Positions 3,449-50,261 of a stretch of DNA of 64,000 bases are shown here, piece after piece. A program made the translations under genes and the position numbers. Positions within the stretch are counted from its first letter, which is position 1. Each line of letters begins with the position of its first letter. Source of the DNA: Hyalangium ruber (GTDB lineage Bacteria > Myxococcota > Myxococcia > Myxococcales > Myxococcaceae); assembly GCF_034259325.1 (NCBI RefSeq), contig NZ_JAXIVS010000008.1, positions 124,001 through 188,000 on the forward strand. Reading direction: 5' to 3'. The notes under the pieces are model-generated. The model searched no databases. It saw only the letters and a list, made by a program, of their open reading frames with translations, and had not been told where the DNA came from.

Positions 3449-3489
3449 CTGATGCATTCTATCCATGGTGGCGTTACCACGGAGGCTCC

Positions 3490-4539: not shown

Positions 4540-4590
4540 TACCGTGAATACGTAGCGCACTGTGCATACCTCTTGCTATGAGAGGCGAGC

Positions 4591-5173: not shown

Positions 5174-5190
5174 GGTCGTCACACGGATCG

Positions 5191-5220
5191 TCGACTCTGT
5201 GGGGAGGGCGCACCTATAGT
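5191..5220 (+). promoter_or_regulatory. Sigma-70-type promoter for the DUF4365 unit
   Basis: TCGACT (5191-5196, 4 of 6 to TTGACA) lies 18 bases before TATAGT (5215-5220, 5 of 6 to TATAAT). The predicted start of transcription is near 5227, which leaves a short leader to the ATG at 5240. This favours the ATG over the GTG at 5219, which would overlap the -10 box. Confidence 0.5.
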
Positions 5221-5239
5221 GCCTCGCCCACAGGTAACG

Positions 5240-5740
5240 ATGACTCGCGAGCAACAGAAGGAGGAGATCAGCAAGGCCTATGTTCACGCCGTCGCGGCGC
5301 GGTGCGGGTTCGCCGTGGGCCAGTGGTCGCAGGACCAGGGCTGCGTCGACGTGAGCATCGGCGCGAGTGGCGCGCTGGGCGGAGGGACACTGGAGGATCC
5401 TCGAATCGATCTTCAGCTCAAATGCACCAGTGACGCCGGTCACGTTCGAGAGGACCACATTGCGTGGCAGCTCTCGCGGTCCCACTACGACAAGCTGCGA
5501 GCCCGCTCGTCGGTTCCGAAGCTCCTGGTCGTCCTCGTGCTGCCCGAGAGGGAAGCGGAGTGGATGCGGCACAGCGTGGAGGCACTCATCATCAAGCGCT
5601 GCGCGTACTGGCTCTCGATGTCCGGGATGCCAGCCGTCTCTTCGGAATCGAGGGTCGTGCAGCTACCGCGTACCAACCTCTTCTCGCCAGAGCAGTTGAA
5701 CGCCATGATGGAGCGAGTCAGTCGAGGAGAGCCGCTGTGA
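5240..5740 (+). CDS. DUF4365 protein, PD-(D/E)xK nuclease-like
   Basis: A 166-residue protein from the ATG at 5240. The pattern QDQGCVDVSI, then RIDLQLKCT, matches DUF4365: an acidic residue in the first strand followed by a QxK in the second, i.e. the active-site arrangement of the restriction-endonuclease-like superfamily with Q in place of D/E. A central SHYDKLR segment and a terminal LPRTNLFSPEQLNAMM complete the usual family outline. DUF4365 domains often sit in phage-defence or toxin-like contexts (established for some members, not proven here). It overlaps the next gene by GTGA, so the two are translationally coupled. Third-position G+C is visibly lower than in the flanking core genes, suggesting recent acquisition. 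Confidence 0.82.
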   Translation: MTREQQKEEISKAYVHAVAARCGFAVGQWSQDQGCVDVSIGASGALGGGTLEDPRIDLQLKCTSDAGHVREDHIAWQLSRSHYDKLRARSSVPKLLVVLVLPEREAEWMRHSVEALIIKRCAYWLSMSGMPAVSSESRVVQLPRTNLFSPEQLNAMMERVSRGEPL

Positions 5741-6858: not shown

Positions 6859-6871
6859 GAGGTTTGGGGCT

Positions 6872-6890
6872 CGCTCCAGGTGAGCGTTCT
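6872..6890 (+). terminator. Weak terminator-like hairpin after the DUF4365 unit
   Basis: CGCTC (6872-6876) pairs with GAGCG (6882-6886) around a 5-base loop and is followed by TTCT. The stem is short, so this is only a candidate. Confidence 0.25.
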
Positions 6891-6964
6891 GGCTCGCCAG
6901 GAGTCCGGCGCAAGGGAATGGTAAAAGCACCCGCACGTGTCGTGCGAGCCGCCCGGCATTGACG

Positions 6965-34534: not shown

Positions 34535-34910
34535 GTACAACCGCACCTACGTGCTGGGCGGAGTGCGCGTCTGCGCGCGATGCCTGGGCACCTATCCGGT
34601 GATGGTGGTGGCCATGGTGGGCCTGTTCGCCGTGCGCGCCCCCTTGAGCTGGGAGTGGGACGTGCCGGTGGTGCTCGGCCTCACCCTGCCGGCCCTCGTG
34701 GACTGGGCCATTGGACGCTTCCGGCCCGCCAGCGGCTCCAACCTCGTGCGCACGCTGACGGGGATTTTGCTGGGGCTGGCGCTCGCCCGCTCCCTCCACG
34801 TCCATGTGCAGCGCCCCTTGCCCACCGTGTTGCTGGCCCAGGCCGCCCTCGTGACAGCCGTCGCCGTCCCTGTCATTCTCGCCACTTACCGAAGGCCACG
34901 CCCCGACTAG
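34458..34910 (+). CDS. DUF2085 membrane protein
   Basis: A 150-residue protein. The motif [30 protein letters not shown], with its CxRCxGxY, is the DUF2085 signature, followed by four hydrophobic helices ([54 protein letters not shown]). The start MPRPQ at 34458 lies inside the OppF gene in another frame; an earlier in-frame ATG would only add OppF antisense-like sequence. Function of the family is unknown. Confidence 0.8.
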
Positions 34911-34983: not shown

Positions 34984-35619
34984 GTGGTGGGACCGGAGAC
35001 CTCAGACGAGGGGCTGATGCTCGCCTTCCGGGCGGGAGACGCCCGTGCGTTCGAGACGCTGGTGCGAAGGCACCGGACGCCGGTCTTCAACTTCATCCTG
35101 CGCTTCACGGGGCACCGGACGCGGGCGGAGGACGTGCTGCAGGAGACGTGGCTGAAGGTGGTACGCAGCGCACGGGAGTACGAGCCCAAGGCGAAGTTCA
35201 CGACCTGGCTCTATACGATTGCGAGGAACCTCTGCGTGGACAGCGCGCGCAAAGAGAGCTACCGGCAGGCCTCCTCCCTGGAGGCTCCCGCCGGTGCCAA
35301 TGCCGGGGGCGACGAGGGTCGGCCTCTCGGAGAGGGGCTCCCGGACACCGGGGCCAGCCCCGAGCGCGGCGCGTACAACGCCCGGCTCCGGCCCCTGTTG
35401 GAGCGCGCCCTGGCCAGCCTGCCGGAGGAGCAGCGCGAGGTGTTCGTGCTGCGTGAGTACAGCGGCATCGCCTTCAAGGACATCGCCGAGGTGACGGGCG
35501 TCTCCGAGAATACGGTGAAGAGCCGGATGCGTTACGCCCTGGAGGGCCTGAGACGGAGGCTGGCGGAGATGGGCGTGGATGGGGACCTGGCCGAGGACGG
35601 AAGGACGGTGGCGGGATGA
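34984..35619 (+). CDS. ECF-family RNA polymerase sigma factor
   Basis: A 211-residue sigma factor. Region 2 is DARAFETLVRRHRTPVFNFILRFTG, with the RAEDVLQETWLKV core-binding helix and the -10 element region KFTTWLYTIARNLCVDSARK. Region 4 is SLPEEQREVFVLREYSGIAFKDIAEVTGVSENTVKSRMRYALEGLRR. An acidic, Gly-rich linker of about 45 residues separates them, longer than usual. The start is GTG 34984 (the next GTG is adjacent). Overlaps the anti-sigma gene by ATGA. Confidence 0.94.
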   Translation: MVGPETSDEGLMLAFRAGDARAFETLVRRHRTPVFNFILRFTGHRTRAEDVLQETWLKVVRSAREYEPKAKFTTWLYTIARNLCVDSARKESYRQASSLEAPAGANAGGDEGRPLGEGLPDTGASPERGAYNARLRPLLERALASLPEEQREVFVLREYSGIAFKDIAEVTGVSENTVKSRMRYALEGLRRRLAEMGVDGDLAEDGRTVAG

Positions 35620-37091
35620 AGCCCCAGAACCTCCATGCCCATGAGGACCGGCTCCTCGACTTCGCCTACGGCGAGCTGCCCGCGCACGAGGCGCTCGCGG
35701 TGGAGTCCCACCTCCAGGGCTGTACTCGCTGCACCGAGGCGCTGGAGGGCATCCGCGGGGTGCGCTCCACCATGGCGCACCTCTCCCTGGAGCCCGCTCC
35801 CGACGCGGGCCTCGAGTCGCTGATGGCGTACGCGCAGCAGGCCGCCCGCAACGCGGCCGCGGGCCCGGCGCCCAAGCCAACCTGGTGGCGGCGCTGGCTC
35901 GTGCCCGCCATGGGCATCACCGCGGTGAGCGTCTTCGGGCTCGTCACGGTCCAGGTCAGCAAGACGGTGAAGCTGCAGCCGAACCTCACCGAGGCGGCCG
36001 CCGTGTCGAAGAACGAGGATGTGCTCGCATTCCCCTCGCCCGAGCCTCAGGCTCCGACGGCGCCGCCGCCGCCTGCCCCGGCGACGGCCGCGCCCGTGGC
36101 GCGGGCCACCCCGCCGCCGCCGTCGCCGCCCGTGCGGCTGGACGACAGCGTGCGCGAGAAGAGCAAGGATCTCGAGGCGGACTGGAGCAACGTGGGCGCC
36201 GGTAAGGTCCTTGCGCGCGACGAGGCCGAGCAGAAGGTCGCCGACAAGAAGGCATCCAGGAAGGAATACAACTACGATCGGCGCGACGCGATGACGCAGT
36301 CCGGGGCGTTCTCCAAGCCCAAGCCGATGCTGGTGGGCTCAGCGCAGGGAGGGGGCCCCACCACGCCGGTGGCCTCCGCGCCTCCGCCGGCTCCTGCCGC
36401 CGAGGAGCCCATGCCCGCCGCCGCTCAGCCCTCGATGGAGGGGGCTGCGATGGATGACGCTGTGATGGCGGAGGCGGAGGTGCAAGAGCAGGCGCCGTAT
36501 CGCGGCGGGCTCAGCCTCAACAAGAAGGCCAAGGGCAAGACGGCGGCCCCCGCCAAGACGGCCTCCACGCGCGACCTCGACGGCACCGAGGAGTCGTTCG
36601 ATGAGGTGTTCGGGGAGCGCGCGAGGAGCTCCGAGGCCCGGCGCGAGAAGCCAGCCGACATGCCTGCGCCCGCTCAGGCTCCCGCCCCGGTGAGCGCGGG
36701 CGCTGCGCCCTCGGGGCGGATCGTGGCTCAGACGCAGCCTTCGCGCGCCGAGCTGTCGCAGCAGGCCACCGCGGCGCTCCGCTCGGGCAACCGCGTGCGC
36801 GAGGCCGAGCTGCTGCGCCAGGCGCTGGCGTCCGGGGCCGTCGGCGAAGAGCGCCTGAAGCTGCTCAACCAGCTCTGTGACGCGGAGTTCGCCATCGGCC
36901 GGCGGCAGGCCGCCTTCGAGGCCTGCAATCAGGTCCTGGAGGAGGGCCCTCGCTCCGTTATCGCCAACGAGGCCCGGAGCCGTCTGCGTCAAGAGGCGCC
37001 GGCCGCCATGCCCAGCTCGGGCTCTCGGGAGCCGGCCAAGGCGGATCAGATGAAGGCTCCCGCGGCCGCCACCCCCGCGGAGGCCCCGTAA
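35616..37091 (+). CDS. Zinc-finger anti-sigma factor with long C-terminal region
   Basis: A 491-residue protein whose N-terminus is a zf-HC2 anti-sigma domain: EDRLLDFAYGELPAHEALAV then HLQGCTRC (HxxxCxxC zinc site). One membrane helix is at about 93-113 (WLVPAMGITAVSVFGLVTVQV). The outer 370 residues are mostly disordered Pro/Ala/Lys-rich sequence, closing with a TPR-like helical repeat (AALRSGNRVREAELLRQALASG). It should hold the coupled ECF sigma factor at the membrane and release it on an envelope signal. The extracytoplasmic part is much larger than in typical anti-sigma factors of about 200-250 residues. Confidence 0.88.
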   Translation: MKPQNLHAHEDRLLDFAYGELPAHEALAVESHLQGCTRCTEALEGIRGVRSTMAHLSLEPAPDAGLESLMAYAQQAARNAAAGPAPKPTWWRRWLVPAMGITAVSVFGLVTVQVSKTVKLQPNLTEAAAVSKNEDVLAFPSPEPQAPTAPPPPAPATAAPVARATPPPPSPPVRLDDSVREKSKDLEADWSNVGAGKVLARDEAEQKVADKKASRKEYNYDRRDAMTQSGAFSKPKPMLVGSAQGGGPTTPVASAPPPAPAAEEPMPAAAQPSMEGAAMDDAVMAEAEVQEQAPYRGGLSLNKKAKGKTAAPAKTASTRDLDGTEESFDEVFGERARSSEARREKPADMPAPAQAPAPVSAGAAPSGRIVAQTQPSRAELSQQATAALRSGNRVREAELLRQALASGAVGEERLKLLNQLCDAEFAIGRRQAAFEACNQVLEEGPRSVIANEARSRLRQEAPAAMPSSGSREPAKADQMKAPAAATPAEAP

Positions 37092-37163
37092 GGGGCTGGA
37101 TTTACTCCACATGCTTCCCAGCCCGCTTCACCGGGAGTGAAAGTCGGAGGGTGTAGGCAGAGG

Positions 37164-37178
37164 CGGTCCAATTGACCG
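37164..37178. promoter_or_regulatory. Inverted repeat before the Tad region
   Basis: CGGTC (37164-37168) and GACCG (37174-37178) flank CAATT, just upstream of the first TadE-like gene. Possible operator; no -35/-10 pair is clear. Confidence 0.25.
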
Positions 37179-37214
37179 ATGCGCCCGCCTTTCCTTACTC
37201 CCGATAATGAACAC

Positions 37215-38183
37215 ATGGATTCTGGGGAGTCGTGTCGGGAGTCGGGACAGGCCGCGGTCGAGGCGGCGCTGATCATGCCGCTGATGGTCTTCATGACGCT
37301 GGGGATCATCCAGCTCACGATGATCCAGCACGCGAAGCTGATGACGGAGTACGCCGCCTACCAGGCGGCGCGAGCGGGCATCGTCTGGAACGGTAACAAC
37401 GAGCGCATGCATGACGCGGCCATCGTGGCGCTGCTGCCGACGATGGGCCGTACGGACAAGGCCAGTGAGCTGCTGCTGACGTGGGCGAAGCACCAGGCCT
37501 ATGACACGGCCATGCGCTCGCTGGCGTGGACCGCCACGCGGGTGCGGCCGCCGGCTTCGTTCAACGGCTCGAACCTCTTTGGCGTCATTCGGGTGGACAC
37601 CATCAACCCGGCCTACTTCACGCCCATCGACACCATCTGGAAGCTGCGCACGGGAGCCAACTGGCAGGAGCTGGACTTCGACGGCGCCGACAGCTTCCCC
37701 GAGGTGCCGGCGCTCGAGGACAACATCCGCAAGTTCTTCAACCTGCCGGAGCCGGACGACTCGGAGACGGTGTACCGCAAGGCCACACGGCTGACGATTC
37801 GCCTGCGCTACTGGTACGAGATGCGGGTGCCGTTCGCCAACTGGGTCATCTTCACGTCCTGGTATGCCTCCAACGCGCGCGTGGCGCTCTACGGCGCCAT
37901 CGATCGGCCCACGCTGTCCAAGAGCAACATGCTCAACAAGACCTCGAACGTCTCGGCCCTGCAGTTCCGAGCGCGGGGCATGGACCACGAGCGTGGCTAC
38001 AACACCTTGTACGCGCCGGAGATGTGGGTGCTATGGGGGCTGGCCAACGGCAGCATCCCGCTCGTCTCGGATCTGGTGGGCAAGCGCTACTTCCTGCCGC
38101 TGACGGCCACCCACACCATGCGCATGCAGTCCAACTTCCACCGGAAGTGGATCCTGCACCTCAACCCCGATTGGGGCCTCTAG
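37215..38183 (+). CDS. TadE-like pseudopilin
   Basis: A 322-residue protein from the ATG at 37215; an in-frame ATG at 37179 would add 12 residues. The N-terminus has a type IVb pseudopilin signal: SGQAAVEAALIMPLMVF, with cleavage after the Gly, Glu at +5 and a hydrophobic helix following. The large C-terminal region is extracytoplasmic, with no recognised domain. TadE-type pseudopilins assist Flp pilus assembly. First gene of a seven-gene plus-strand run of pilus and exported proteins with spacings under 15 bases. Confidence 0.8.
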   Translation: MDSGESCRESGQAAVEAALIMPLMVFMTLGIIQLTMIQHAKLMTEYAAYQAARAGIVWNGNNERMHDAAIVALLPTMGRTDKASELLLTWAKHQAYDTAMRSLAWTATRVRPPASFNGSNLFGVIRVDTINPAYFTPIDTIWKLRTGANWQELDFDGADSFPEVPALEDNIRKFFNLPEPDDSETVYRKATRLTIRLRYWYEMRVPFANWVIFTSWYASNARVALYGAIDRPTLSKSNMLNKTSNVSALQFRARGMDHERGYNTLYAPEMWVLWGLANGSIPLVSDLVGKRYFLPLTATHTMRMQSNFHRKWILHLNPDWGL

Positions 38184-38186
38184 GTC

Positions 38187-40268
38187 ATGTTTACTCGCGT
38201 CCTTCGCCAGAGCTTCCGCCGCCAGGAGGGCCAGGCCCTCGTCGTGGCCGCCCTGATGGTGCTCATCATGTCCATCGCCGTCCTGGCGACGGTGAACATC
38301 GGGCACACCATCCACGAGCGCATCCGCCTGCAGAACACGGCGGACGCGGCCTCCTACTCCATGGCCGCCATGGAGGCGCGCGCGTTCAACTTCTACGCGT
38401 ACGCCAACCGGACCCAGGTGTCCCACTACGTCTCGGCGATGATGTGGCAGTCGCTCCTGTCACTCATCTACTTCGCCGAGGCGTTCCTCACGGACATCTA
38501 CGGGTTCATGAAGACGATCAACCCCTGCGCGGGAGATCCTGACGGGGTCTTCTGGACAGTGGCCTGTCCCATCCTCGAAAACCTGGTGCCATACCTCAGC
38601 CAGATCATGAGGATCATCGAACGCTTCATGGACACGTACAAGACGCTGCTGAGGAGCTTCCAGCAGATCTTGTTCAACGCCAACCCGGACAAGATCATCG
38701 GCAAGTTCGTCATCCCCACGCACCGGGTGCTCAACGGGGTGATGTTCTTCGCCTCGCAAGCGGTGATGGCCTCCACCGTCTCGCACGTGCTGCAGACCAC
38801 CGACACGGTGATCGCCGCCAACGACAAGAACGTGGACTCGAAGCTGAGCCAGCTGGCCTCGGGCGCGCTCAACGTGTGCCTCTTCGATCAGCCGCACTTC
38901 CGCGAGGCGGGCGCGCACCCGCTCAACCCGATCCGCAACCCCTTCCAGCCCATCGATCCGCGAAAGTGGAAGCACTCGGAGAAGGAGGCGCGCGCCAAGC
39001 GCTCCATGGGCGCCATCACCAACGCCACGCGCTACGCGTGTGACGCCGAGGGGGGCGCGTGCCCCGAGGGCTTCATCACCTCGCGCAAGCTGGGCGATCT
39101 CATCCCGCTGCCGGACGGCCTGGGCATCATCCGCGATCTGCTGAGCTCGGACATCGACACGCCGATCTTCAAGTTCGCCAAGTACGGGCAGACGCGCATG
39201 CTCACGTACAACAACCCGAACCGGAGCAAGATCACCCAGACGGGCAGGCCCTACACGCCGCGCAATACGATCCGCGACTGGAACGACGGCATCGAGCCCA
39301 CGCTGGGCATGCTGGCGCAGGGCGACAACATGGGCTCGGACGACGTGTACTGGATCAAGTTCGGCCCCGAGGGCTTTGGCCCCTTCCGCAACCCGTTCGC
39401 GTGCGCGGAAGACGACAACCCCCGTGAGTGCTGGGGCGATCCGCGCAAGGACTACAAGGACACCGGGAGCCAGAAGCTGCCCTTCAAGCACGTGACGAAG
39501 AGCAGCATCTGGGCGATGAACGAGTACGAGGACTCGCACAACGACGGTGGCGTGCATTGGCGCATCCACCACACGCGCCAGCCGCCGGGGGACAACTGGA
39601 GGCGGCTGTTCCGGCCCTCGGGTCCGGAGTCCGAGGTGGGCGTCCACCGCAGCGAGGTGTGCCTCATCAAGGTGTTCGGTCGCTGCGCGCCCCTGGCGCC
39701 GGAGATCGACGTGTACGCCGCCAATGTGATGCCCGCGGAGGACGGCAACCACCCCTGGGGTGGCATCGTCCCGTTCATGCACTTCGAGCCCGGCCAGTAC
39801 GCGGGCACCTGCGGCGGCGCGGCCAGCAACGAGGCGGCGGCCACCCGCTACCAGCACGACTTCAACCAGCCCTCCACCTGGGTGGCGCTCAACAAGACGC
39901 CCGATCAGATCATCAACAAGGGGAAGACGGACCACGCGGGCACTGGCTCCAACGACATCGCGCTGCTCAACGACAACGGGCGGGTGAAGTGGAAGTTCGC
40001 CACCAGCACGCCCACGCTGAACATGAAGAGCGTCGCGGATGGCTCGAAGCTGATCTTCCCCACGGGGCTCAACGTCATCTCGCGCGGGCAGGCGTACTAC
40101 CACCGCCCGGGCAACTGGGCCGAGCACCCCAACTTCTTCAACCCGTACTGGCGGCCTCGGCTCGCCTCCGTCTACCAGGGCCGGCATACGCTGCCCTACG
40201 CGGGGCAGTTGATCGACAGTCTGCCCGGGGTGTTGAAGGACATCCCGCCGAAGATCATCACCCACTGA
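38187..40268 (+). CDS. TadG-like pilus-associated protein
   Basis: A 693-residue protein. EGQALVVAALMVLIMSIAVLA is a pseudopilin-like start without the usual Glu at +5, as in TadG. ERIRLQNTADAASYSMAA fits the TadG/DUF2134 N-terminal pattern. The remaining 600 residues are extracytoplasmic and rich in Asn, Trp and Tyr, with paired cysteines (CAGDPDGVFWTVAC and CAEDDNPREC). TadG proteins may link the pilus to the peptidoglycan or outer membrane. It is very long for the family, where about 400-550 residues is more usual. It follows the TadE-like gene after 3 bases. Confidence 0.8.
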   Translation: MFTRVLRQSFRRQEGQALVVAALMVLIMSIAVLATVNIGHTIHERIRLQNTADAASYSMAAMEARAFNFYAYANRTQVSHYVSAMMWQSLLSLIYFAEAFLTDIYGFMKTINPCAGDPDGVFWTVACPILENLVPYLSQIMRIIERFMDTYKTLLRSFQQILFNANPDKIIGKFVIPTHRVLNGVMFFASQAVMASTVSHVLQTTDTVIAANDKNVDSKLSQLASGALNVCLFDQPHFREAGAHPLNPIRNPFQPIDPRKWKHSEKEARAKRSMGAITNATRYACDAEGGACPEGFITSRKLGDLIPLPDGLGIIRDLLSSDIDTPIFKFAKYGQTRMLTYNNPNRSKITQTGRPYTPRNTIRDWNDGIEPTLGMLAQGDNMGSDDVYWIKFGPEGFGPFRNPFACAEDDNPRECWGDPRKDYKDTGSQKLPFKHVTKSSIWAMNEYEDSHNDGGVHWRIHHTRQPPGDNWRRLFRPSGPESEVGVHRSEVCLIKVFGRCAPLAPEIDVYAANVMPAEDGNHPWGGIVPFMHFEPGQYAGTCGGAASNEAAATRYQHDFNQPSTWVALNKTPDQIINKGKTDHAGTGSNDIALLNDNGRVKWKFATSTPTLNMKSVADGSKLIFPTGLNVISRGQAYYHRPGNWAEHPNFFNPYWRPRLASVYQGRHTLPYAGQLIDSLPGVLKDIPPKIITH

Positions 40269-40278
40269 GGACCGACCC

Positions 40279-41472
40279 ATGAGACTGCCTGCCCAGCGTC
40301 AGTACGCCCGGCGTGGCGCCGCCACGGTCGAGTTCGCGATCATCGTGCCGGTGCTGGTGACGATCCTGATGTTCAGCATGTACCTGACCGAGTTGGTGCG
40401 GGCGAAGATCAAGCTCCAGGAGTTCTCGCGCTACGTCGTCTTCGAGATGACGAGCTACACCCTGAGCGACTTCGCCAATGCCCAGCACGACCAGGCTTTC
40501 ACCGACGCGCAGACGGAGATGATGGAAGAGGCCGTCGAGCGCTACAAGGATCTGGACTCGGTGGAGCCCAACGCGCCGGGCGGCAACTTCGTCGCGAAGT
40601 TCGCGGAGGTGGCGGGTACCGTGCAGAACAAGGACGTGCCCTTCATCGAGGCGGGCCTGGTGCTGGGCAACGCCAACGAGGGCTTCGCCAGCGACGTGCT
40701 GGGAGCGATCAACGGGGGAGCCAACGGGCTGCTCAGCTTCTGGCGCTTCAACACCAAGGGGTGGGTGGAGACGGAAGTGACCATGAAGTACAACAACGCC
40801 ATCCTCCCCGAGAGCTACCTGGACCAGGGGCGGGGCGCGTTCTTCAAGGTGGACCCCTTTGGGGGCAAGAGCATCGCCAGCCTGGAGCTCAAGCAGCGCT
40901 TCTCCATGTACGCCGACCCCTGGAACATGGAGGACGGCGGCGATGCCACCATCCGCGGGCGTCGCGCGGGCGCGCACCGTGCCGGCTCCGAGGAGTTCAG
41001 CCACGGACTCTACCGGCAGGTGAACCGGATGGTGTTCCTCGGGGTGAAGGATCGACTGTTGGGCGAGTCGAGCATCATCAGCGACCTGGGCTCGTTCCTC
41101 GCGCAGATCTTCCCGGCCTTCCTGGGCACCTTCGTCGTTTCGCACAACTACACCGCCAACCCCACGGACGAGTGGGATCGCGAGTGCATCGGCGGCGACA
41201 CGGGCATCGTGTCCTACCCCGCGGAGGCCCAGGGCGGCCTCAACAACCTGGACAAGTTCTCCCAGCTCGACCACCCACGGCCCAAGTGCTTCGACACTGC
41301 CCCGTTCCGCGACCAGCCGTACGAGCGCTCGCAGTACATCAAGATCTTCCAATCGCGCGGCGACTTCTTCATGGGTTGCAAGAACGCGCAGGCGAATGAT
41401 CCCTCCGCGCCCCAGAGCACCGAGGCGACCCAACGTGACGAGAGCAAGACCAATGCAGTCAACTGCGAGTAG
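40279..41472 (+). CDS. Second TadE-like pseudopilin
   Basis: A 397-residue protein. The pseudopilin signal is RRGAATVEFAIIVPVLVTILMFSMYL, with Glu at +5 after the Gly. The conserved start of the mature helix is followed by a large extracytoplasmic domain (mixed alpha/beta, two late cysteines in GGDTG and PRPKCF surroundings). GAGGA lies before the ATG. It overlaps the next gene by 20 bases. With the first TadE-like and the TadG-like proteins it forms the minor-pilin trio common to Tad systems. Confidence 0.82.
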   Translation: MRLPAQRQYARRGAATVEFAIIVPVLVTILMFSMYLTELVRAKIKLQEFSRYVVFEMTSYTLSDFANAQHDQAFTDAQTEMMEEAVERYKDLDSVEPNAPGGNFVAKFAEVAGTVQNKDVPFIEAGLVLGNANEGFASDVLGAINGGANGLLSFWRFNTKGWVETEVTMKYNNAILPESYLDQGRGAFFKVDPFGGKSIASLELKQRFSMYADPWNMEDGGDATIRGRRAGAHRAGSEEFSHGLYRQVNRMVFLGVKDRLLGESSIISDLGSFLAQIFPAFLGTFVVSHNYTANPTDEWDRECIGGDTGIVSYPAEAQGGLNNLDKFSQLDHPRPKCFDTAPFRDQPYERSQYIKIFQSRGDFFMGCKNAQANDPSAPQSTEATQRDESKTNAVNCE

Positions 41473-42259
41473 GGCCCTGGCCCGGCTCGTGGTGCTGGGC
41501 GTGATGCTGATGGCCGTGGTGGCTCGCGCCGAGCAGGAGCTGCCCGTCTACCCCGGCGCGGTCCACACGCGCATCGGCAAGGACCTGATCATCTCCGGCG
41601 AGTACTACCGGCTGGCGTACTTCACCACCGACGACTCGATGGAGAAGGTGGCCGACTACTTCGTCAAGCACTGGCGCTCCCAGGGTTACCCCACCGTGGT
41701 GGAGGGGGACATGGTGCAGGAGGCGGTGGTGTCCGCCCTCTTCACCCGCGAGGGGCTGCAGCGCGGCGTGGTGCTGCGCAAGCACCTGGGCAAGACGGTG
41801 GGCTTCTCGGCGCTCCGCGACCTGTGGGTGCGCGCCCCCCGCAAGAAGGACGGCGGGCTGGTGAAGCTCGAGGGCACGCTCTTCAGCCAGGACATCACCA
41901 CGCGCGATGACCCGGGTGGCTCGCAACACCGCTCCTCGTTGGTGAACGCGCCCCTGGTCAGCGTGCGCGATCAGGTGACGCAGGAGTTGACGCGGCAGGG
42001 CTTCGCCATGGTGCGGCAGACGGGCGCGACGCTCGGCGGCGAGGAGCGCTTCACCCTGGAGCACGCCCGCAAGGGAGAGCAGGTGGTGACGACGCTCAGC
42101 CGCGTGGACGCGGAGACCACGGCGGTGCTGCAGATGTGGGTGGGCTCGGATCGGCCGGACGCGATGCCCAACGACGAGGCCGTGCGCCAGAGCCGGCAGG
42201 ACTGGGAGCGCGAGCAGAAGGCGAAGAAGGAAGCCGCCGCCCAGGGGGCCACGCCATGA
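41453..42259 (+). CDS. Secreted hypothetical protein of the Tad region
   Basis: A 268-residue protein from the ATG at 41453, inside the end of the TadE-like gene. A clear signal peptide (LARLVVLGVMLMAVVARAEQ, cleavage after ARA) is followed by PVYPGAVHTRIGKDLIISGEYYRLAYFTTDDSMEKVADYFVKHW. Two alpha/beta modules are suggested by VADYFVKHWRSQGYPTVVEGD and QVTQELTRQGFAMVRQTG. Function unknown. Charged Lys/Gln-rich C-terminus. ATGA overlap with the next gene. Confidence 0.8.
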   Translation: MQSTASRALARLVVLGVMLMAVVARAEQELPVYPGAVHTRIGKDLIISGEYYRLAYFTTDDSMEKVADYFVKHWRSQGYPTVVEGDMVQEAVVSALFTREGLQRGVVLRKHLGKTVGFSALRDLWVRAPRKKDGGLVKLEGTLFSQDITTRDDPGGSQHRSSLVNAPLVSVRDQVTQELTRQGFAMVRQTGATLGGEERFTLEHARKGEQVVTTLSRVDAETTAVLQMWVGSDRPDAMPNDEAVRQSRQDWEREQKAKKEAAAQGATP

Positions 42260-43017
42260 GGGCGCTGGCGCTCACGCTCGTGCTGCTCGCGGCGGTCCCC
42301 GCCTCGGCCGCCATGCCGGGCAAGTCCCTCATGGACCACCTGGCCAAGGGGCTTCGCACCACCCAGGTCGGCGACTGGGTGACGTACAAGCTCGATGGCG
42401 GCGGTGCGCGCGTTCACTACTGGCGGCTGGCCGTAGTGGGGGAGGAGAAGGACAAGCTCGGCCGCGACGCGCTGTGGCTGGAGATGGAGATGGGCACGCA
42501 CCCGGCCATGCGCTCGCCCCTGTCGCAGATCCGCATGCTGATCGCCCGGGGCGATGGGGTGGCCTTCGACGCCAACGGGATTACCCGCCTCATCGTCGCC
42601 ATGGGCTTCGACAAGCCCCAGGAGTACTCCGAGGAGGCGCTCGACTGGGCCCTGAAGAAGCCCGAGAAGACCCAGAAGGCCGCGCCCCGGGGCCAGACGC
42701 CCGCCGCGTCCGTCGTGGTGCGTTCGGGCAAGGAGGCGCGGCTGATGACGCCCGCGGGCACGGTGACCGCCGTCCCCGTGGAGGTGCTCTACCGCGCCAC
42801 TGTCGTCAAACGCACATGGCTGAGCCGGGAGATTCCCATTCTCAACCTGGCCAAGGTCGAGATCCCCCGGATTGCCCACGCCCTCGAAGTTCACGAGTAT
42901 GGAGTGAACGCCAAGCCCCGCATGCTGCTACCGGACCCCAAGACACCGACGGTGAAGATGGGGTATGCGGAGAAGGTGTTCCCCCAGCTGCCTTGGTTGG
43001 AGGAGGAGACCCCATGA
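42256..43017 (+). CDS. Second secreted hypothetical protein of the Tad region
   Basis: A 253-residue protein from the ATG at 42256, overlapping the previous stop. Signal peptide LALTLVLLAAVPASAAM. The mature part is beta-rich: VGDWVTYKLDGGGARVHYWRLAVVGEE and DALWLEMEMG suggest a lipocalin- or LolA-like sheet. ATGA overlap with the prepilin gene downstream places its product in the same envelope process. No family recognised. Confidence 0.78.
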   Translation: MRALALTLVLLAAVPASAAMPGKSLMDHLAKGLRTTQVGDWVTYKLDGGGARVHYWRLAVVGEEKDKLGRDALWLEMEMGTHPAMRSPLSQIRMLIARGDGVAFDANGITRLIVAMGFDKPQEYSEEALDWALKKPEKTQKAAPRGQTPAASVVVRSGKEARLMTPAGTVTAVPVEVLYRATVVKRTWLSREIPILNLAKVEIPRIAHALEVHEYGVNAKPRMLLPDPKTPTVKMGYAEKVFPQLPWLEEETP

Positions 43018-43241
43018 AGGACCTGAAGAAGACCCGCTCCGCCCGGAGCCGCATGCGCGGCCAGTCGATGGTCGAGTATTCGATGATCAACTGGGTCCTC
43101 GTCGTGGCGCTCGTCATCGGCGCCAGCGTGAAGATCCGCTGGACGGATGACAGGCAGTCCAACGTCATCGACCTGTTCCTCGAGGCGTACCAGGTCTATT
43201 ACGACTCGTACTACTTCGTGCTGAACCTGCCGTTCCCGTGA
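43014..43241 (+). CDS. Flp-like type IVb prepilin
   Basis: A 75-residue protein. The basic leader ends in RMRG, followed by QSMVEYSMINWVLVVALVIG. G16 with Glu at +5 and Tyr at +6 is exactly the Flp prepilin motif G|XXXXEY. A single hydrophobic helix follows and the C-terminus is short and aromatic (YQVYYDSYYFVLNLPFP). The mature peptide would be about 59 residues, within the Flp range. It is coupled by ATGA to the gene upstream and by GTGA to the one downstream. Likely the major or a minor Flp pilin of this locus. Confidence 0.78.
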   Translation: MKDLKKTRSARSRMRGQSMVEYSMINWVLVVALVIGASVKIRWTDDRQSNVIDLFLEAYQVYYDSYYFVLNLPFP

Positions 43242-43972
43242 CGAAGCCGTCCCCGGCGCCCGTCCGCTCCTCGCTGGGCCTGCGCCTGGTTCACGCGGCC
43301 GTCTTCCTCGCCTTCGCGGCGGCGGCGACGGTCGCGGCCCTGCCAGAGTGGCGGCACGGCCTGGACGTGCTGGGGCGCGCCTATCACGTGGGCACGCCGC
43401 CCCGGGCCGTCCTGGTGCTGGGCTCGGTGCTGGCGGTGGCCGGCGCCTCGAGCCTGCTGTTCTCCCTGCTCCGAAACCGCTCCGCTCCCATGGTCGCCTC
43501 GTGGCTCATCCTCGGGGGCCTGGTCGCCAGCATCGTCGGCACCGCCGGCAGCCCCGAGCCCGAGCGCCCCACGGAGGTGGCGGCCAACACCGCCCTCATC
43601 CAGCTCGGACAGCGCGTGCAGGTTGCCATGGTGAGCCAGCTCCAGGAGCGCGGCGAGGTGCCGGTGGCGCTCGGCCCCTGGCAGCACGCTCTGGAGCGGG
43701 TGGCGCCCCCGGGCCGCTTCCGCACGCGCGGCTTTCGCGCCGTACCTCCCCAGGTGGTGGCCGTGGCCACGCCCGAGGCACTCCCCGCGCCGCTGCTGCC
43801 GGGCGCGCTGCTGCTTCACGTCTCTTCGGATGGGGCCTCCTTCGAGCTGCGCCTCGTGGGCCTCTCTCAGGGAGAGCCCCAGGTGCTGCGAGACGAGACC
43901 GGCGCGCCCGTGGTTTTGCGCGGACTCTTCAACCCGAGCCTACCTGCTACGCCTGCTCGCTCGCTCCCGTGA
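43238..43972 (+). CDS. Membrane protein of the Tad region
   Basis: A 244-residue protein from GTG 43238, overlapping the prepilin stop. Three hydrophobic segments: HAAVFLAFAAAATVAAL, VLVLGSVLAVAGASSLLFSLL and VASWLILGGLVASIVG. An extracytoplasmic alpha/beta region follows (TALIQLGQRVQVAMVSQLQERGEV). No family recognised. Last gene of the run that starts at 37215; a 230-base gap with a promoter separates it from cpaB. Confidence 0.75.
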   Translation: MTKPSPAPVRSSLGLRLVHAAVFLAFAAAATVAALPEWRHGLDVLGRAYHVGTPPRAVLVLGSVLAVAGASSLLFSLLRNRSAPMVASWLILGGLVASIVGTAGSPEPERPTEVAANTALIQLGQRVQVAMVSQLQERGEVPVALGPWQHALERVAPPGRFRTRGFRAVPPQVVAVATPEALPAPLLPGALLLHVSSDGASFELRLVGLSQGEPQVLRDETGAPVVLRGLFNPSLPATPARSLP

Positions 43973-44070
43973 TGCCAGGTCGGCTGCTCGCGCCCAGAGT
44001 AAAATAGCCCTTGATCCGCTAGCTTCCATCAGGGAGTACAGGCTTTGCTGTCCTGTCACGGGAGGTCGTT

Positions 44071-44098
44071 TTGACACCCGATGCGTCGCACGGATAAC
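44071..44098 (+). promoter_or_regulatory. Sigma-70-type promoter before cpaB
   Basis: TTGACA (44071-44076), a perfect -35, lies 16 bases before GATAAC (44093-44098, 4 of 6). It is about 100 bases before the CpaB ATG, in a 230-base intergenic stretch. TAAAAT at 44000-44005 may be a second -10. This suggests that cpaB-tadB-tadC are transcribed separately from the pseudopilin genes. Confidence 0.5.
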
Positions 44099-44202
44099 AT
44101 CTCACCCCGCGTCCGCGCCTTGGCGCCACTTTCCGTTTCATTTCCCTCAAAAAGTTTTCACGCCACACGGCGTACCTGCGTCTCCCTGGGAGGTCCTGAG
44201 AA

Positions 44203-45021
44203 ATGCTGAAGGGTAAGACTCCGCTCATCGTCGCCATCGTCCTCGGTCTGTTGGCCGGTGTAGTTGCGTACTCGGCCATCAAGAAGAAGGAGGCGGATGT
44301 CCGCCGCGGTTGGAACCTGGTCCCGGTGGTCGTGGCCGCCCAGGACATCCCCGAAGGCACCATCATCACCTTCGACATGATCTCCCAGCGCTCGGTGCCC
44401 GAGCAGTTCGTCACCTCGTCCGTGGTGAAGCCGGACTCGGCCACCTACGTGGTGAACCAGAAGGTGCTCGTGCCGCTGCAGGCCGGCGACCCGTTGCTCT
44501 GGAGCCAGTTCGAGACCACCAAGGCCGCCGAGCGCCTGTCCTCGAAGGTCCAGAAGAAGGGCCGCGCGATCACCCTGGAGGCCAAGGCCATCACCGCGGT
44601 CGGTGGCTGGGTGCGCCCCAACGATCACGTGGACGTGATCGGCACCTTCCGTGATCCGCAGACCGACGAGCAGGTCGCCGTGACGCTGCTCCAGAACGTG
44701 ATCGTTCTGGCCACGGGCAAGATCACCGGTACCACGAACGTGAACCTCATCCCCGAGGGTCAGCGCGAGTACAACAACGTCTCGCTGCTGGTCATCCCGG
44801 AGGAGGCCGAAATCCTCGTCCTGGCCTCGGAGATGGGCAACCTGACGCTGTCGCTCCGCAACGAGGACGACGTGGACATCATCGAGGAGCGCGGCCGCGC
44901 CACCATCAGCACGCTGCTCTCCGGTGAGCGCACCCGCGTGCTGGAGCAGAAGCGCCGCGAGATCATCACCATCATCAAGGGCAACTCCAAGGAGCAGAAC
45001 GCGGGCGTTGGCTCTCCGTAG
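44203..45021 (+). CDS. cpaB: Flp pilus assembly protein CpaB/RcpC
   Basis: A 272-residue protein with one N-terminal membrane segment (LIVAIVLGLLAGVVAYSAI), the SAF domain (PVVVAAQDIPEGTIITFDMI and VVNQKVLVPLQAGDPLLWSQF), and the RcpC/CpaB region (AITAVGGWVRPNDHVDVIGTF, TVTLLQNVIVLATG). It is a periplasmic, secretin-associated part of the Tad apparatus. GGGAGG precedes the ATG. In most tad loci cpaC (secretin) follows; here TadB follows directly. Confidence 0.93.
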   Translation: MLKGKTPLIVAIVLGLLAGVVAYSAIKKKEADVRRGWNLVPVVVAAQDIPEGTIITFDMISQRSVPEQFVTSSVVKPDSATYVVNQKVLVPLQAGDPLLWSQFETTKAAERLSSKVQKKGRAITLEAKAITAVGGWVRPNDHVDVIGTFRDPQTDEQVAVTLLQNVIVLATGKITGTTNVNLIPEGQREYNNVSLLVIPEEAEILVLASEMGNLTLSLRNEDDVDIIEERGRATISTLLSGERTRVLEQKRREIITIIKGNSKEQNAGVGSP

Positions 45022-45076
45022 TCGGGCGTCCTTGCCCAGCCCACCGCGTTCCTAACTTCCCCGGGAGCCTCCCCTC

Positions 45077-45922
45077 ATGTTGGCAGGAATCGTCCTCCTC
45101 CTCGTCACCGGCGCTGTCTTCTTCTTCAGCCTGGTGATCTTCACGGTGCTCGCGAAGGCCTACGAGCAATATCAGGAGCGCTACGTCGCCAAGTCGATGA
45201 ACGACTTGAGTGACATGTTCCTGTTCATCGACGCGCGGCAGATGTTGATCCTCAACATCGCGTCGATGTGCCTTCTGGGCATCCTCAGCTACATCATCTT
45301 CAACCCCATCCTCTGCGTGGGCATGACCATCTTCGGCTTCTTCCTGCCGATGCTGACGGTCAAGCACTACCGCAAGCGGCGCATCAAGAAGTTCAACGTG
45401 CAGCTGGTGGACGCGCTCCAGGCCATGGCCAACGCGTTCAAGGCGGGTCTGACGTTCCCGCAGGCCATCGAGCACGTGGCGCGCGAGGCGCTGCCGCCGC
45501 TGTCCCAGGAGTTCGGCCTCTTCGTGAAGGAAGTGAAGCTGGGCGTGCCCCTGGAAGAGGCGCTCATCAACATGGCCAAGCGCGTGGGCAGTGACGACCT
45601 GGAGCTCGTCGTCGTGTCCACCAACATCGCCCGCCAGCTCGGCGGCAACATGGCGGAGATGTTCGAGACGATCTCGACCGTTATCCGTGAGCGCTTCCGC
45701 CTCGAGGGCAAGATCGACGCGCTGACCAGCCAGGGCAAGCTGCAGGGCTGGATCGTCGCCTCCATGCCCGCGGTGCTGGGCATGGTGCTCAACGCCATGC
45801 GTCCGGACCTGATGGAGCCGATGATGAACCACATCTTCGGCTATCTGCTGGTGACGGTGATCGCCATCATGGAGATCCTCGGCATCCTCATCATCCGCCG
45901 CATCGTCAACATCGACATCTGA
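45077..45922 (+). CDS. tadB: Tad platform protein TadB (T2SSF family)
   Basis: A 281-residue inner-membrane protein. An N-terminal helix (IVLLLVTGAVFFFSLVIFTVL) and a hydrophobic pair at about 60-100 precede the T2SSF domain: LVDALQAMANAFKAGLTFPQAIEHVA and DLELVVVSTNIARQLGGNMAEMFETIS. Two C-terminal membrane helices (QGWIVASMPAVLGMVLNAM and HIFGYLLVTVIAIMEILGILIIRR) follow. TadB and TadC form the platform that the TadA ATPase drives. GGGAG precedes the start. Confidence 0.93.
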   Translation: MLAGIVLLLVTGAVFFFSLVIFTVLAKAYEQYQERYVAKSMNDLSDMFLFIDARQMLILNIASMCLLGILSYIIFNPILCVGMTIFGFFLPMLTVKHYRKRRIKKFNVQLVDALQAMANAFKAGLTFPQAIEHVAREALPPLSQEFGLFVKEVKLGVPLEEALINMAKRVGSDDLELVVVSTNIARQLGGNMAEMFETISTVIRERFRLEGKIDALTSQGKLQGWIVASMPAVLGMVLNAMRPDLMEPMMNHIFGYLLVTVIAIMEILGILIIRRIVNIDI

Positions 45923-45936
45923 CGGAGAAGACGACC

Positions 45937-46827
45937 GTGCAGGACATCCTCACTCAATTCTTGCTGGGCGGCTCGGCGCTGTTCGCCGCCGCCGCGGCCG
46001 CCTTCCTCGGCATCGGCATCTACAACAACTACTTCGAGACGTTCGTCTCGGAGGTGCAGGGCGAGTCCGCGGGCGGCATGAAGGGCGCCGGCTCGGTGGC
46101 CATCCGCAAGCTCGGCGCGATGAACCGCCGGGTCATGTGGCCGGGCTACGAAGCCAAGATGCGGAAGAACCTCATCAAGGCCGGTGATGTGAACGGGTAC
46201 AAGCCCGAGGACATCATGGCCCTGCAGGAGGTCGGCTTCGTCGCCGGTCTGCTCGGCGGCCTCATCCTCGCCAACGGCCTGGGACAGAATCTGGCCTGGT
46301 CGCTCGTCGTCGCCCTGTTCGGCATGTACTACCCGATGATCTGGGTGAACGATCAGGTCAAGAAGCGTCACCTGCAGATCTCCCGCGCGCTGCCCTACAA
46401 CCTGGACCTGCTCACGCTGTCGGTGGAAGCGGGCCTCGACTTCACCGCCGCGCTCGCCAAGGTGGTGGAGAAGGGCAAGACGGGCCCGCTCAAGGACGAG
46501 CTGGCCCTGGTGCTCAAGCAGCTGAAGATGGGCAAGACGCGTGAAGAGGCCCTCAAGGCGATGATCGTCCGCGTGGACCTGCCGCCGCTCACCACCTTCG
46601 TCACCGCGCTCATCCAGGCCGACAAGATGGGTACGAGCCTCGGTAAGGTGCTGCGCATCCAGTCCACGCAGATGCGCATCGACCGCACCCAGCGCGCCGA
46701 GAAGCTGGCCGGCGAGGCCCCGGTGAAGATGCTCTTCCCGCTGATCGCCTGCATCTTCCCGACGGTGTTCATGGTGCTCTTCGGGCCCATCGTCTTCGCG
46801 TTCATGTTCGGAAACGTGGGGGGGTAG
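45937..46827 (+). CDS. tadC: Tad platform protein TadC (T2SSF family)
   Basis: A 296-residue partner of TadB starting at GTG 45937 (GGAGAAG upstream). Membrane segments at the N-terminus (GGSALFAAAAAAFLGIGIY), about 105-145, and C-terminal (MLFPLIACIFPTVFMVLFGPIVFAFMFG) surround the T2SSF domain (YNLDLLTLSVEAGLDFTAALAKVVEKG and LTTFVTALIQADKMGTSLGKVLRIQS). It ends at a TAG codon after GNVGG; the following FHA gene continues in the same reading frame directly after this stop. Confidence 0.93.
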   Translation: MQDILTQFLLGGSALFAAAAAAFLGIGIYNNYFETFVSEVQGESAGGMKGAGSVAIRKLGAMNRRVMWPGYEAKMRKNLIKAGDVNGYKPEDIMALQEVGFVAGLLGGLILANGLGQNLAWSLVVALFGMYYPMIWVNDQVKKRHLQISRALPYNLDLLTLSVEAGLDFTAALAKVVEKGKTGPLKDELALVLKQLKMGKTREEALKAMIVRVDLPPLTTFVTALIQADKMGTSLGKVLRIQSTQMRIDRTQRAEKLAGEAPVKMLFPLIACIFPTVFMVLFGPIVFAFMFGNVGG

Positions 46828-46830
46828 GTC

Positions 46831-48477
46831 CTGGGGTTCAGGCTGACCATCGCGAAGGGTCTCCAGGAAGGCCGGGAGATCTCCTTCGAGGATGACGAGC
46901 TGACGATTGGCCGCACCTCGGAGAACCAGGTGGTGTTGCACGATCACGGCGTGTCTCGCCGCCACGCGCGCCTCTTCGCGCGCGGCGGCAGGCACTACGT
47001 GACGGACCTGGGCAGCGCCAACGGCACCCTCGTCAACGGCAAGGCCCTGCTCAAGCTCAAGGAGCAGGAGCTGCGTGAGGGGGACCGAATCTCCCTTGGC
47101 GGGGTGGAGTTCGTCTTCTCCCAGCTGTCGCCGTCGCCGTCGCCGCCGCCGCCGGAGGAGGCCACCCGGATGGTGCCCTCCCGGTCCATCGCTCCACGCT
47201 CGAGCACGCGCATCACCCGCGCGAACACCGAGATGGAGATGCAGGCCATCGAGGCCGAGGACACCGGCAAGCACCGCATCGTCAGCGAGGCGGAGGTGAC
47301 GGGTTCTGCCTCGGGGAGTGGAGCCGCCACCCTGGCGGAGATGCCCGCGGTGGTCGCACCCGCCGCCGGCGCGGCTACCGTGGCGGAGATGCCCGCGGTG
47401 CTGGCTCCGGCCGCCGGTACCTCCACCCTGGCGGAGATGCCCGCCACGATTCGTTCCTCGCCGCCCCTGATCGCTCGCCCTTCGCCACGCACCGCCGCGG
47501 CCAAGGAGCTGGGGAGCGCCAAGCCGTCGGCCGCCGAGCGCGCGCGCGAACGCCGGCAGATGCGCGAGACCCTGGGCGGGCAGCTCGTGGTCTGGTGGAA
47601 GGAGCTCTCCACGAAGGGCAAGTCCATCGCGGGCGTCTTCACCGGGCTCGTGGTGGTCGGCGTGATGGCCGTGCTCTTCAGCGTGTTCAAGCCCGCCCCC
47701 GACGGCCGTCCCAAGGGGCCCGAGCCCACGCAGATCAGCATCTCTCCGCTGCCGGACTCGTTCGGACTGGGCGAGGGCGTCCAGTGGACCAACCCGGACC
47801 AGAAGGCGTTCGACTTCGAGTTCGTCTCGCCCACCCGGGCGGTGGCTGTCCTACATTACCAGGCCAGCAACATCTCCGAGCAGGAGGTGGACATCACCCT
47901 CAACGGGGTGAGCCAGGGCTGGGTCCCCGGTGACACGGCCACCGCGGCCGAGCGAGAGATCGAGCTGGTGCTGGCCCTGTCGCTGCTCAAGCGCAGTGAG
48001 CGCAACCAGCTGGCCTTCGACAATGTGCGCAACCCTCCGGGCCAGGAGAGCTGGCGCGTCTGGAACGTGTACGTGGAGGTCATCCCCGTGCCCGAGCTGC
48101 CGCTGGCCGAGCTGCTCACCAAGGCACGCGAGCAGGCGACCGCGGGCGAGCGCTTCTACGAGCAGAAGGATGTAGGCTCGGAGAACCTGTTCAAGGCCTG
48201 GAAGAACTACCGCTCGGCCTGGCTCACCCTGGAGGCGCTCGAGGACAAGCCGGACCTCTACAATGATGTCCGCTTCGCCCTCCAGCAGACGAGCGCGGAG
48301 TTGGACCAGCAGTGTCGTAAGCTGATGCTCGATTTTCAACGCAGCTTGCAGTTCCGAGATGGGGACAAGGCCAGGGCCACCGTGCTGGAGGTCAAGAGGC
48401 GCTTCCCTACGACCGAGCATCGCTGTCACAATCTGGCTCTCGAAAAAGCGGCACAATACGAGCTGCCGTTAGACTGA
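46831..48477 (+). CDS. FHA-domain membrane protein, apparent CTG start
   Basis: A 548-residue protein if read from CTG 46831. No ATG, GTG or TTG occurs between the TadC stop (46825) and a GTG at 46930, and the latter would remove the first strands of the FHA fold (FRLTIAKGLQEG through LTIGRTSENQ). GGGGGG at 46819-46824 could serve as ribosome-binding sequence. The FHA core SRRHARLF and SANGTLVNG is intact. Residues 160-230 hold three copies of a 16-residue AEMPA repeat; a membrane helix (SIAGVFTGLVVVGVMAVLFSVF) is at about 270, and a beta-sandwich-like and helical region follows. Stop codon 26 bases before the next FHA gene. Probably a Tad-associated phospho-signalling adaptor. Confidence 0.8.
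   Translation: MGFRLTIAKGLQEGREISFEDDELTIGRTSENQVVLHDHGVSRRHARLFARGGRHYVTDLGSANGTLVNGKALLKLKEQELREGDRISLGGVEFVFSQLSPSPSPPPPEEATRMVPSRSIAPRSSTRITRANTEMEMQAIEAEDTGKHRIVSEAEVTGSASGSGAATLAEMPAVVAPAAGAATVAEMPAVLAPAAGTSTLAEMPATIRSSPPLIARPSPRTAAAKELGSAKPSAAERARERRQMRETLGGQLVVWWKELSTKGKSIAGVFTGLVVVGVMAVLFSVFKPAPDGRPKGPEPTQISISPLPDSFGLGEGVQWTNPDQKAFDFEFVSPTRAVAVLHYQASNISEQEVDITLNGVSQGWVPGDTATAAEREIELVLALSLLKRSERNQLAFDNVRNPPGQESWRVWNVYVEVIPVPELPLAELLTKAREQATAGERFYEQKDVGSENLFKAWKNYRSAWLTLEALEDKPDLYNDVRFALQQTSAELDQQCRKLMLDFQRSLQFRDGDKARATVLEVKRRFPTTEHRCHNLALEKAAQYELPLD
47326..47451 (+). repeat. Tandem 48-base coding repeat
   Basis: Copies at 47326-47373 and 47374-47421, with a partial third from 47422, encode ATLAEMPAVVAPAAGA-like units inside the FHA protein linker. 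They differ at several bases, so this is not a recent duplication. Confidence 0.8.
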
Positions 48478-48509
48478 ACCCCCGGCTCTCGTAGGAAGCG
48501 GTGATTCAC

Positions 48510-50261
48510 ATGGCGAACCCTCCTCCCACGGCGCGACGTCGCCCCTCCACGTCCTCTGGCAGCTCCGCTGGCGGCAGCGGACCGCAGCGGCCCGCCCGCA
48601 GGACTGGAGCCGCGCCGCCGGTACGGCCCGAGTCCACGCCCTTCAGCGGCCCCAAGCTGGTGGTCTCCGGCGGGCCCAAGGCCGGCGAGGAGTTCAACCT
48701 GCAGGAGGAGGAGTACGTCGTCGGTCGCTCGACCGACAACCCCATCTGCATCGCGGACACCTCCGTCTCGCGCAAGCACATCATGCTGCGGCGGGTGGGG
48801 CAGGGCTGGACGGTGAGCGATCTGGGCTCCGGTAACGGCACCCTGGTCAACGGCGAGCCCATCAACGACGAGACGGTGCTGGCCAACGGCGACGTCATCA
48901 CCATGGGCGACACGGAGGTGACGTTCACCGACGTGGCCAACTCGACGATGATGGTGGACATCACCGCGGGCCCCTCGCGCTCGCGGCCCTCCACCTCGGG
49001 CGCCGCGCCGGGCCGTCCGCCTCCGCGCCCCGAGCGGGTGCGTCCCGCGCGCGCGGGCGCGGCGAAGGCCGTGGATCCGCAGGCGCAGCGCAAGAAGAAG
49101 ATCATCATCGGCTCGGTGGCGGGCGTCATCATCGTCGCCGGCCTGGGCCTGGTGGGCCTGAAGATGCGCCAGAAGGCGGCCGAGGAGGCCCGGACGGCCG
49201 TCTCCCTGCGCAAGGCGCAGGTGCGTCAGGAGAACGCGGCGGTCTTCCAGGACGCCAAGAACCACATCCGCGAGGGTCGCTGGACCGAGGCCAAGGCGCT
49301 GCTGCTGGAGCTGCAGGAGAAGTCGCCGGACATGGGCCTGCAGGACTACCTGGACCGGGTGGAGAAGGAGATCCCCAACCAGGAGCGCGTGGTGGCCGCC
49401 GAGGCGGCGCTCAAGGAGAAGCGGCTCGCGGTCGCTAAGGGCGAGCTCGACAAGGTCACCCCGGACACGCAGATGTACGAGCAGGTCAACAAGCTCAAGC
49501 GCGAGCTGCGTGACACCTCGGACTCCCAGGCCAAGGCGGCGCGGGCCCTGCTCGACACCAAGCAGCTGGACCCGGCCCGGCAGGCCAAGGCCTCCATGGA
49601 AGACGTGCTCGTGGTGTTCCCCGAGCACCGCGACGCCAAGCTCCTCAACGAGGAGGCCACCAAGCTGATCGCCCAGCTGACCTTCGTGGCGCCTCCGCCT
49701 CCGCCCCCGCCGCCCAAGGATCCCTGGGAGGCCTCCGTGGCGCGCTTCGTCGACGGCGACTTGTCGGGCGGAGTGGCGCTCGCCAACGCGTGCGTGACGA
49801 AGTCGAACAAGTGCAAGGGCGGCCTCAAGGACATGACGGAGTTCGGCAACCTCTACAAGAAGCTGGAGGACCTGGACGCCAAGGGCCTGGCGCGGCTGCT
49901 GGCGCTGGACAAGGACATCACCGGGCCGCGGGGCCCCAGCAAGATGGCCAAGAACGCGGGCACGCGCGCGGCGAACATCTTCTACAAGAGCGCCTCGGCG
50001 GCGAAGGCCGCGGGCCAGTGGTCGCGCGCCATCGAGTACGCGCGGCGCACGCTTCAGGCGGACCCCGGCCACGCGGGTGCCTCCAACATCGTCAATGACT
50101 TGAGGTCCAAGGCGAAGGAGATCTACCTCCAGGCCTATACGCTCAAGGCCGAGAACCCCGAGGACGCCATCCCCAAGTTCAAGGAGGTGATCGCCATGAC
50201 GCCTCCGGATGACGAGAACCACCAGAAGGCGAAGAACTGGCTCGAGCAACTCCAGAGATGA
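48510..50261 (+). CDS. FHA-domain membrane protein with helical repeats
   Basis: A 583-residue protein from the ATG at 48510; a GTG at 48501 is also in frame. After a disordered basic stretch (residues 1-48) the FHA domain runs from LVVSGGPKAGEEFNLQEEEYVVGR through SVSRKHIML and SGNGTLVNGE. One membrane helix (KIIIGSVAGVIIVAGLGLVGL) sits at about 190. The C-terminal 370 residues are TPR-like helices (RWTEAKALLLELQEK, SRAIEYARRTLQADPGHAG) with a Pro-rich break. Its stop overlaps the xseA start (ATGA). It probably belongs functionally with the preceding FHA/Tad genes. Confidence 0.88.
   Translation: MANPPPTARRRPSTSSGSSAGGSGPQRPARRTGAAPPVRPESTPFSGPKLVVSGGPKAGEEFNLQEEEYVVGRSTDNPICIADTSVSRKHIMLRRVGQGWTVSDLGSGNGTLVNGEPINDETVLANGDVITMGDTEVTFTDVANSTMMVDITAGPSRSRPSTSGAAPGRPPPRPERVRPARAGAAKAVDPQAQRKKKIIIGSVAGVIIVAGLGLVGLKMRQKAAEEARTAVSLRKAQVRQENAAVFQDAKNHIREGRWTEAKALLLELQEKSPDMGLQDYLDRVEKEIPNQERVVAAEAALKEKRLAVAKGELDKVTPDTQMYEQVNKLKRELRDTSDSQAKAARALLDTKQLDPARQAKASMEDVLVVFPEHRDAKLLNEEATKLIAQLTFVAPPPPPPPPKDPWEASVARFVDGDLSGGVALANACVTKSNKCKGGLKDMTEFGNLYKKLEDLDAKGLARLLALDKDITGPRGPSKMAKNAGTRAANIFYKSASAAKAAGQWSRAIEYARRTLQADPGHAGASNIVNDLRSKAKEIYLQAYTLKAENPEDAIPKFKEVIAMTPPDDENHQKAKNWLEQLQR

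Follow-up and report, generated by a model that had tools for sequence, protein, structure and literature searches.

A Tad-type pilus locus of Hyalangium ruber as probable gene cluster II of the Kil predation system

How could a Tad pilus be assembled from a locus without its motor, secretin and prepilin peptidase? The question arises in Hyalangium ruber, in a stretch of 64,000 nucleotides (the window; C8:124001-188000 of a 10.77-Mb draft genome in 43 contigs), for which a preliminary description had proposed either that the remaining parts are encoded at another site or that the locus is a specialised derivative.

Gene content of the locus and its counterpart on contig C12

All genes of the locus lie on the plus strand. 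The pilin genes open with a KilM4-type minor pilin (TadE; 37179..38183; 72% identical to its homologue in cluster II of Myxococcus xanthus AM003, L113, the reference for the identities that follow), a large KilN4-type minor pilin (TadG, Pfam Tad; 38187..40268; 59%) and a KilL4-type minor pilin (TadE/TadF; 40279..41472; 53%), all assigned by Pfam. Two exported accessory proteins with structure models and fold matches (41453..42259, 63%, predicted to have two domains; 42256..43017, 57%), a KilK-type Flp adapter prepilin with the N-terminus RGQSMVEY (43014..43241; 73%) and a membrane protein without a match in either Pfam or NCBIfam (43238..43972; 44%) lead to KilB (CpaB/RcpC by Pfam and TIGR03177; 44203..45021; 90%) and to the platform proteins KilG (TadB; 45077..45922; 91%) and KilH (TadC; 45937..46827; 80%), both Pfam T2SSF matches. 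Pfam and homology to M. xanthus thus confirmed the CpaB, TadB, TadC, three minor pilins and Flp-like prepilin named in the preliminary description, as well as the gap of 55 bases between the end of cpaB and the start of tadB. FHA proteins do come after TadC, with Pfam FHA matches in the frames 46930-48477 and 48501-50261; the first probably begins at a CTG (46831..48477, see below), the second is an FHA and TPR protein by Pfam (56%), and xseA (50258-52042) forms the downstream flank. The limits first given to the locus, 37215-48477, proved too narrow, as the cluster spans from about 34984 to 50261. Its first gene encodes an ECF sigma factor (34984..35619; Pfam Sigma70_r2 and r4_2) and may start at codon 2 instead; an anti-sigma-like zf-HC2 protein with one predicted transmembrane helix follows (35616..37091; Pfam zf-HC2 and hydrophobicity scan).

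Profile searches of the whole genome confirmed that TadA, secretin and prepilin peptidase are absent from the window. All three secretins, both peptidase A24 matches and all 18 T2SSE matches lie outside it, the sole T2SSE match on C8 being a weak one at C8:390529. TadZ_N had no match over the cut-off in the genome, a model that falls below its cut-off in Caulobacter too. The missing genes sit together on contig C12, not adjacent to the locus as had also been considered. Between glyS and polA, C12 encodes on one strand an FHA protein, a peptidase A24, a secretin (matching Secretin, BON and T2SS-T3SS_pil_N in a frame whose true start is uncertain), an ATPase with FHA (residues 23-87) and T2SSE (254-550) domains, a protein with two FHA domains and two long frames that match no Pfam family, the start of one being lipoprotein-like. 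The phrase 'without its motor' therefore holds for the locus but not for the genome. RcpC has a single match genome-wide, in the window, and no second complete tad locus accompanies it. Of the six T2SSF matches, two belong to the window; the other four form two pairs, on C1 and C6, which adjoin strong T2SSE matches that we read, from their scores, as of PilB/GspE type. The window hence holds the only TadB/TadC pair of the genome as well as its only CpaB, and the two halves are therefore complementary; one RcpC and one Tad-type T2SSF pair amount to one Tad-type machine in two halves.

A Tad pilus divided in this manner is known from M. xanthus. According to the main text of the published studies, predatory myxobacteria use Kil as a weapon to kill other bacteria on contact (PMC8460266; PMC12075869). 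The first of these assigns the kilA peptidase, kilC secretin, kilF ATPase and FHA proteins to MXAN_3102-3108 (PMC8460266, eLife 2021), and kilB, kilG, kilH, kilK, kilL and kilM to MXAN_4648-4661; it reports Kil as required for contact-dependent killing, calls the two-cluster split 'a unique situation' and treats the fusion of the KilF ATPase to an N-terminal FHA domain as a mark of the system (PMC8460266). The second extends the inventory by KilP as major pilin, by KilK and KilO as adapters and by four Tip complexes (KilL/M/N 1-4); it also describes kil and tip clusters from further Myxococcales (PMC12075869, Nat Commun 2025). The window is collinear with cluster II of M. xanthus AM003 in 14 of 14 genes, from zf-HC2 (cut by the contig edge in the latter) to XseA, and C12 with the matching M. 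xanthus contig in 9 of 9 genes, two of which are the cluster I flanks glyS and polA. From these comparisons of sequence, the locus is almost certainly kil gene cluster II of the Kil Tad-type predation pilus, with cluster I on C12. The Kil system is already known, and this main finding is of low novelty. The 'specialised derivative' alternative fits as well, because Kil is a specialised Tad pilus, and the earlier interpretation as a whole is partly supported.

Further parts expected of a Kil system were detected elsewhere in the genome. A candidate for the KilP-like major pilin lies on C11, with a Flp_Fap score of 24.7 bits that is below the cut-off of 32.2 bits. Three additional minor-pilin (Tip) clusters, one on C14 and two on C2, contain M, N and L genes, and the one on C14 carries a second Flp, comparable to kilO in the tip3 cluster as given in the main text of PMC12075869. 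The genome also encodes T3SS export functions, with two FHIPEP genes.

In related loci, kilM, kilN, kilL and the genes at 41453, 42256 and 43238 behave as a cassette (Tip4), with all six present in 17 of 18 kilM loci. None of the 29 ECF-bearing loci without kilM has any of the three accessory genes, and kilK was detected in 16 of these; the ECF and zf-HC2 pair persists where the cassette is missing. In the two Archangium loci L121 and L122 (about 2365-8837), the cassette lies in inverted orientation between zf-HC2 and kilB; Corallococcus loci lack it at this site. One locus titled Comamonas sp. KCTC 72670 (L107) is probably mislabelled, because it carries a full Myxococcus-like kil cluster II with a KilG identity of 93%. 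The model of the 42256 protein (pLDDT 76) is predicted to be LolA/RseB/MucB-like (best Z 9.9, rmsd 4.4, 156 aligned). For the 41453 protein (pLDDT 82, pTM 0.47), the fold was assigned from single domains, and Foldseek alone gave poor overall matches for the whole protein; its C-terminal domain is predicted to be DcrB/Eag-like, resembling DcrB (Z 10.5), PA1624 (9.7) and SciW/EagT6 (9.5/9.2). These predicted folds imply no function.

Distribution and age of the split

A survey of 195 genomes from the phylum gave KilG matches in 146 of them and KilF matches in 161. Distances between the two were taken from the best listed match of each, paired by eye among the matches listed, and are linear, with circularity ignored; genomes with the pair on different contigs are not judgeable by distance. 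Among the matches listed, the best KilG and KilF share a contig in 36 genomes. Twelve of these pairs are canonical Tad pairs, all with KilG and KilF at most 1.7 kb apart, and 24 are of Kil type, all with their halves 91 kb to 9.6 Mb apart; KilG identity is 28-33% in the former and at least 54% in the latter, again among the matches listed. In a genome from another family of the order (G161) and one from elsewhere in the phylum (G194), the 17-19.5 kb round each half are free of the other half's core genes. Division into two halves is a long-established and stable property of Kil systems in Myxococcota and no accident.

This pattern bears on the reading that the locus belongs to an ordinary adhesive Tad pilus, cut by an accident of assembly or rearrangement. 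The draft state of the genome (43 contigs) speaks for such an accident, yet each half is embedded in a long contig and has conserved neighbours (xseA; glyS and polA), and an equal split is found in 24 of 24 same-contig Kil-type pairs among the matches listed, many of them from one-contig genomes. We consider this reading extremely improbable. It is also very unlikely that the genes are a remnant or regulatory leftover of a pilus that is no longer built. In favour of a remnant, divergence is faster in the tip proteins (KilN 59%) than in the core (KilG 91%); every frame is intact, however, the core is strongly conserved, and the Tip clusters, KilK, the KilP-like pilin and the T3SS export genes have been retained. 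Both an assembly artefact and a remnant of a second locus were dismissed on the single RcpC, the T2SSF inventory, the conserved flanks and the recurrent split, leaving the two-part Kil system as the preferred reading. As a separate observation, the genome G194 carries, besides its split Kil-type system, a canonical Tad locus that is contiguous (L170, G194:C298).

Start codon of the FHA gene and the ECF head

The FHA gene behind kilH probably starts at CTG 46831 and not, as first annotated, at GTG 46930. No ATG, GTG or TTG lies in frame upstream of that GTG, and a start there cuts into the FHA domain (profile positions 12-67, 60 bits); from the CTG, the match extends over positions 2-67 with 73.7 bits. 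We aligned the start codons of 97 sequences, 73 of which were distinct once 21 duplicates and 3 entries without the gene or a match were set apart. The FHA start lies at most 25 bases from the kilH stop in 50 of the 73 (near class). Its codon is CTG in 34 of the 50, GTG in 7 (including M. xanthus), ATG in 7 and TTG in 2; CTC or another non-NTG codon occupies this position in none of the near class. Thirty of the 34 CTG cases are without an in-frame ATG, GTG or TTG upstream, and four have one 5-11 codons upstream. The aligned position is farther off in the remaining 23 sequences, many of which have the second FHA gene directly behind kilH, and falls on ATG or GTG in 5 and not in 18. An initial set comprised 30 distinct sequences chosen for their CTG start, which is therefore invariant by design; their leucine codon 5 is CTC in 19, CTG in 10 and TTG in one. 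The 32 codons after the CTG have a median pN/pS of 0.49 (423 pairs), which alone is weak coding support, and 25, 18 and 29 variable columns by codon position. Counted across the kil genes, CTG starts the FHA gene in 20 of 22 cases and each other gene at most once, a count blurred by misaligned N-termini. The frame of the FHA gene with respect to kilH varies between species, which led us to reject a fusion of the two by readthrough or frameshift. Literature searches on CTG starts and on MXAN_4662 returned nothing of direct use. A conserved CUG start a few bases past the kilH stop could keep the dose of this FHA phospho-reader low and couple it to the platform protein; gene callers that admit only ATG, GTG and TTG would truncate the protein inside its FHA domain.

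The ECF homologue adjoins kil cluster II in 33 of 67 related loci, and zf-HC2 stands alone at the flank edge in 11 more. The ECF homologue is absent from 7 of the 67 with enough sequence and was not seen in a further 2; 14 are too short to judge its presence. RpoE1 of M. xanthus may be a counterpart of the ECF gene. Upstream of this gene lies a possible operator, the dyad TGACAG-N12-CTGTCA (34852..34875, plus strand). Among the 30 ECF-bearing loci with that stretch, the dyad is exact in 22, has at most two mismatches in 2 more and is absent in 6. Behind it, CTTACC-17 bases-TAGAYC looks, by eye, like a promoter. The exact dyad occurs only once in the genome, and allowing one mismatch yields 6 places vs 5 for a reversed control pattern; therefore, no regulon is shown. 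A shared operator for all kil genes was tried and rejected; cluster I, the Tip clusters and the KilP candidate are all without a listed dyad place. The ECF/anti-sigma-like pair may switch the weapon on. The terms 'sigma factor' and 'anti-sigma' are absent from the main text of both Kil papers, supplements apart (PMC8460266; PMC12075869), and a literature search returned no paper combining the Kil system, a sigma factor and Myxococcus. We give an even chance to the view that kil cluster II has two unreported control features, the FHA gene with its conserved CUG start and the ECF/anti-sigma-like pair under a dyad promoter. If these side points hold, the switching and dosing of the weapon could be approached directly, through its own sigma factor and through an FHA protein that begins at CUG. 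Both features merit modest further work.

Proposed machine and comparison with known systems

Function, assembly and regulation of Kil in Hyalangium ruber, which we infer by analogy with M. xanthus, could be as follows. Cluster II would supply the platform (KilG and KilH), CpaB (KilB), the adapter pilin KilK, the Tip4 minor-pilin complex (KilL4, KilM4 and KilN4) and accessory and FHA proteins. Cluster I on C12 would contribute the motor KilF, the secretin KilC, the prepilin peptidase KilA and more FHA proteins, and the KilP-like major pilin (C11) and the three Tip clusters (C14 and two on C2) would complete the set. Upon contact with prey, the FHA-fused ATPase may polymerise, at the contact site, a pilus that passes through the platform and secretin and ends in a Tip complex. 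The predator would then cease to move, and the prey would be killed and, with a needleless T3SS, lysed. Phospho-regulation via the FHA domains, suggested in the preliminary description, is a fair guess and is likewise proposed in the main text of the 2021 paper (PMC8460266). The initial puzzle is closed, as the split Tad locus is almost certainly the published Kil predation weapon.

The Kil system of M. xanthus is likewise divided into two clusters with identical gene order, and its genes for tip proteins and the major pilin are at other genomic sites. Identities to its proteins are 80-91% for KilB, KilG and KilH and 77-86% for KilA, KilC and KilF. The two species differ in a lipoprotein-like frame between the 43238 homologue and kilB, which M. 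xanthus has in addition (L113:7257-8307) and the window lacks, and in the start of the FHA gene behind kilH, which is probably CTG in the window and is GTG in M. xanthus. A canonical Tad/Flp locus (G036, L171) shares the core protein families; over the aligned parts, its TadB has about 34% identity with KilG and its TadA about 52% with KilF. Unlike the window, that locus carries cpaB, the secretin gene, tadA, tadB and tadC in a single run.
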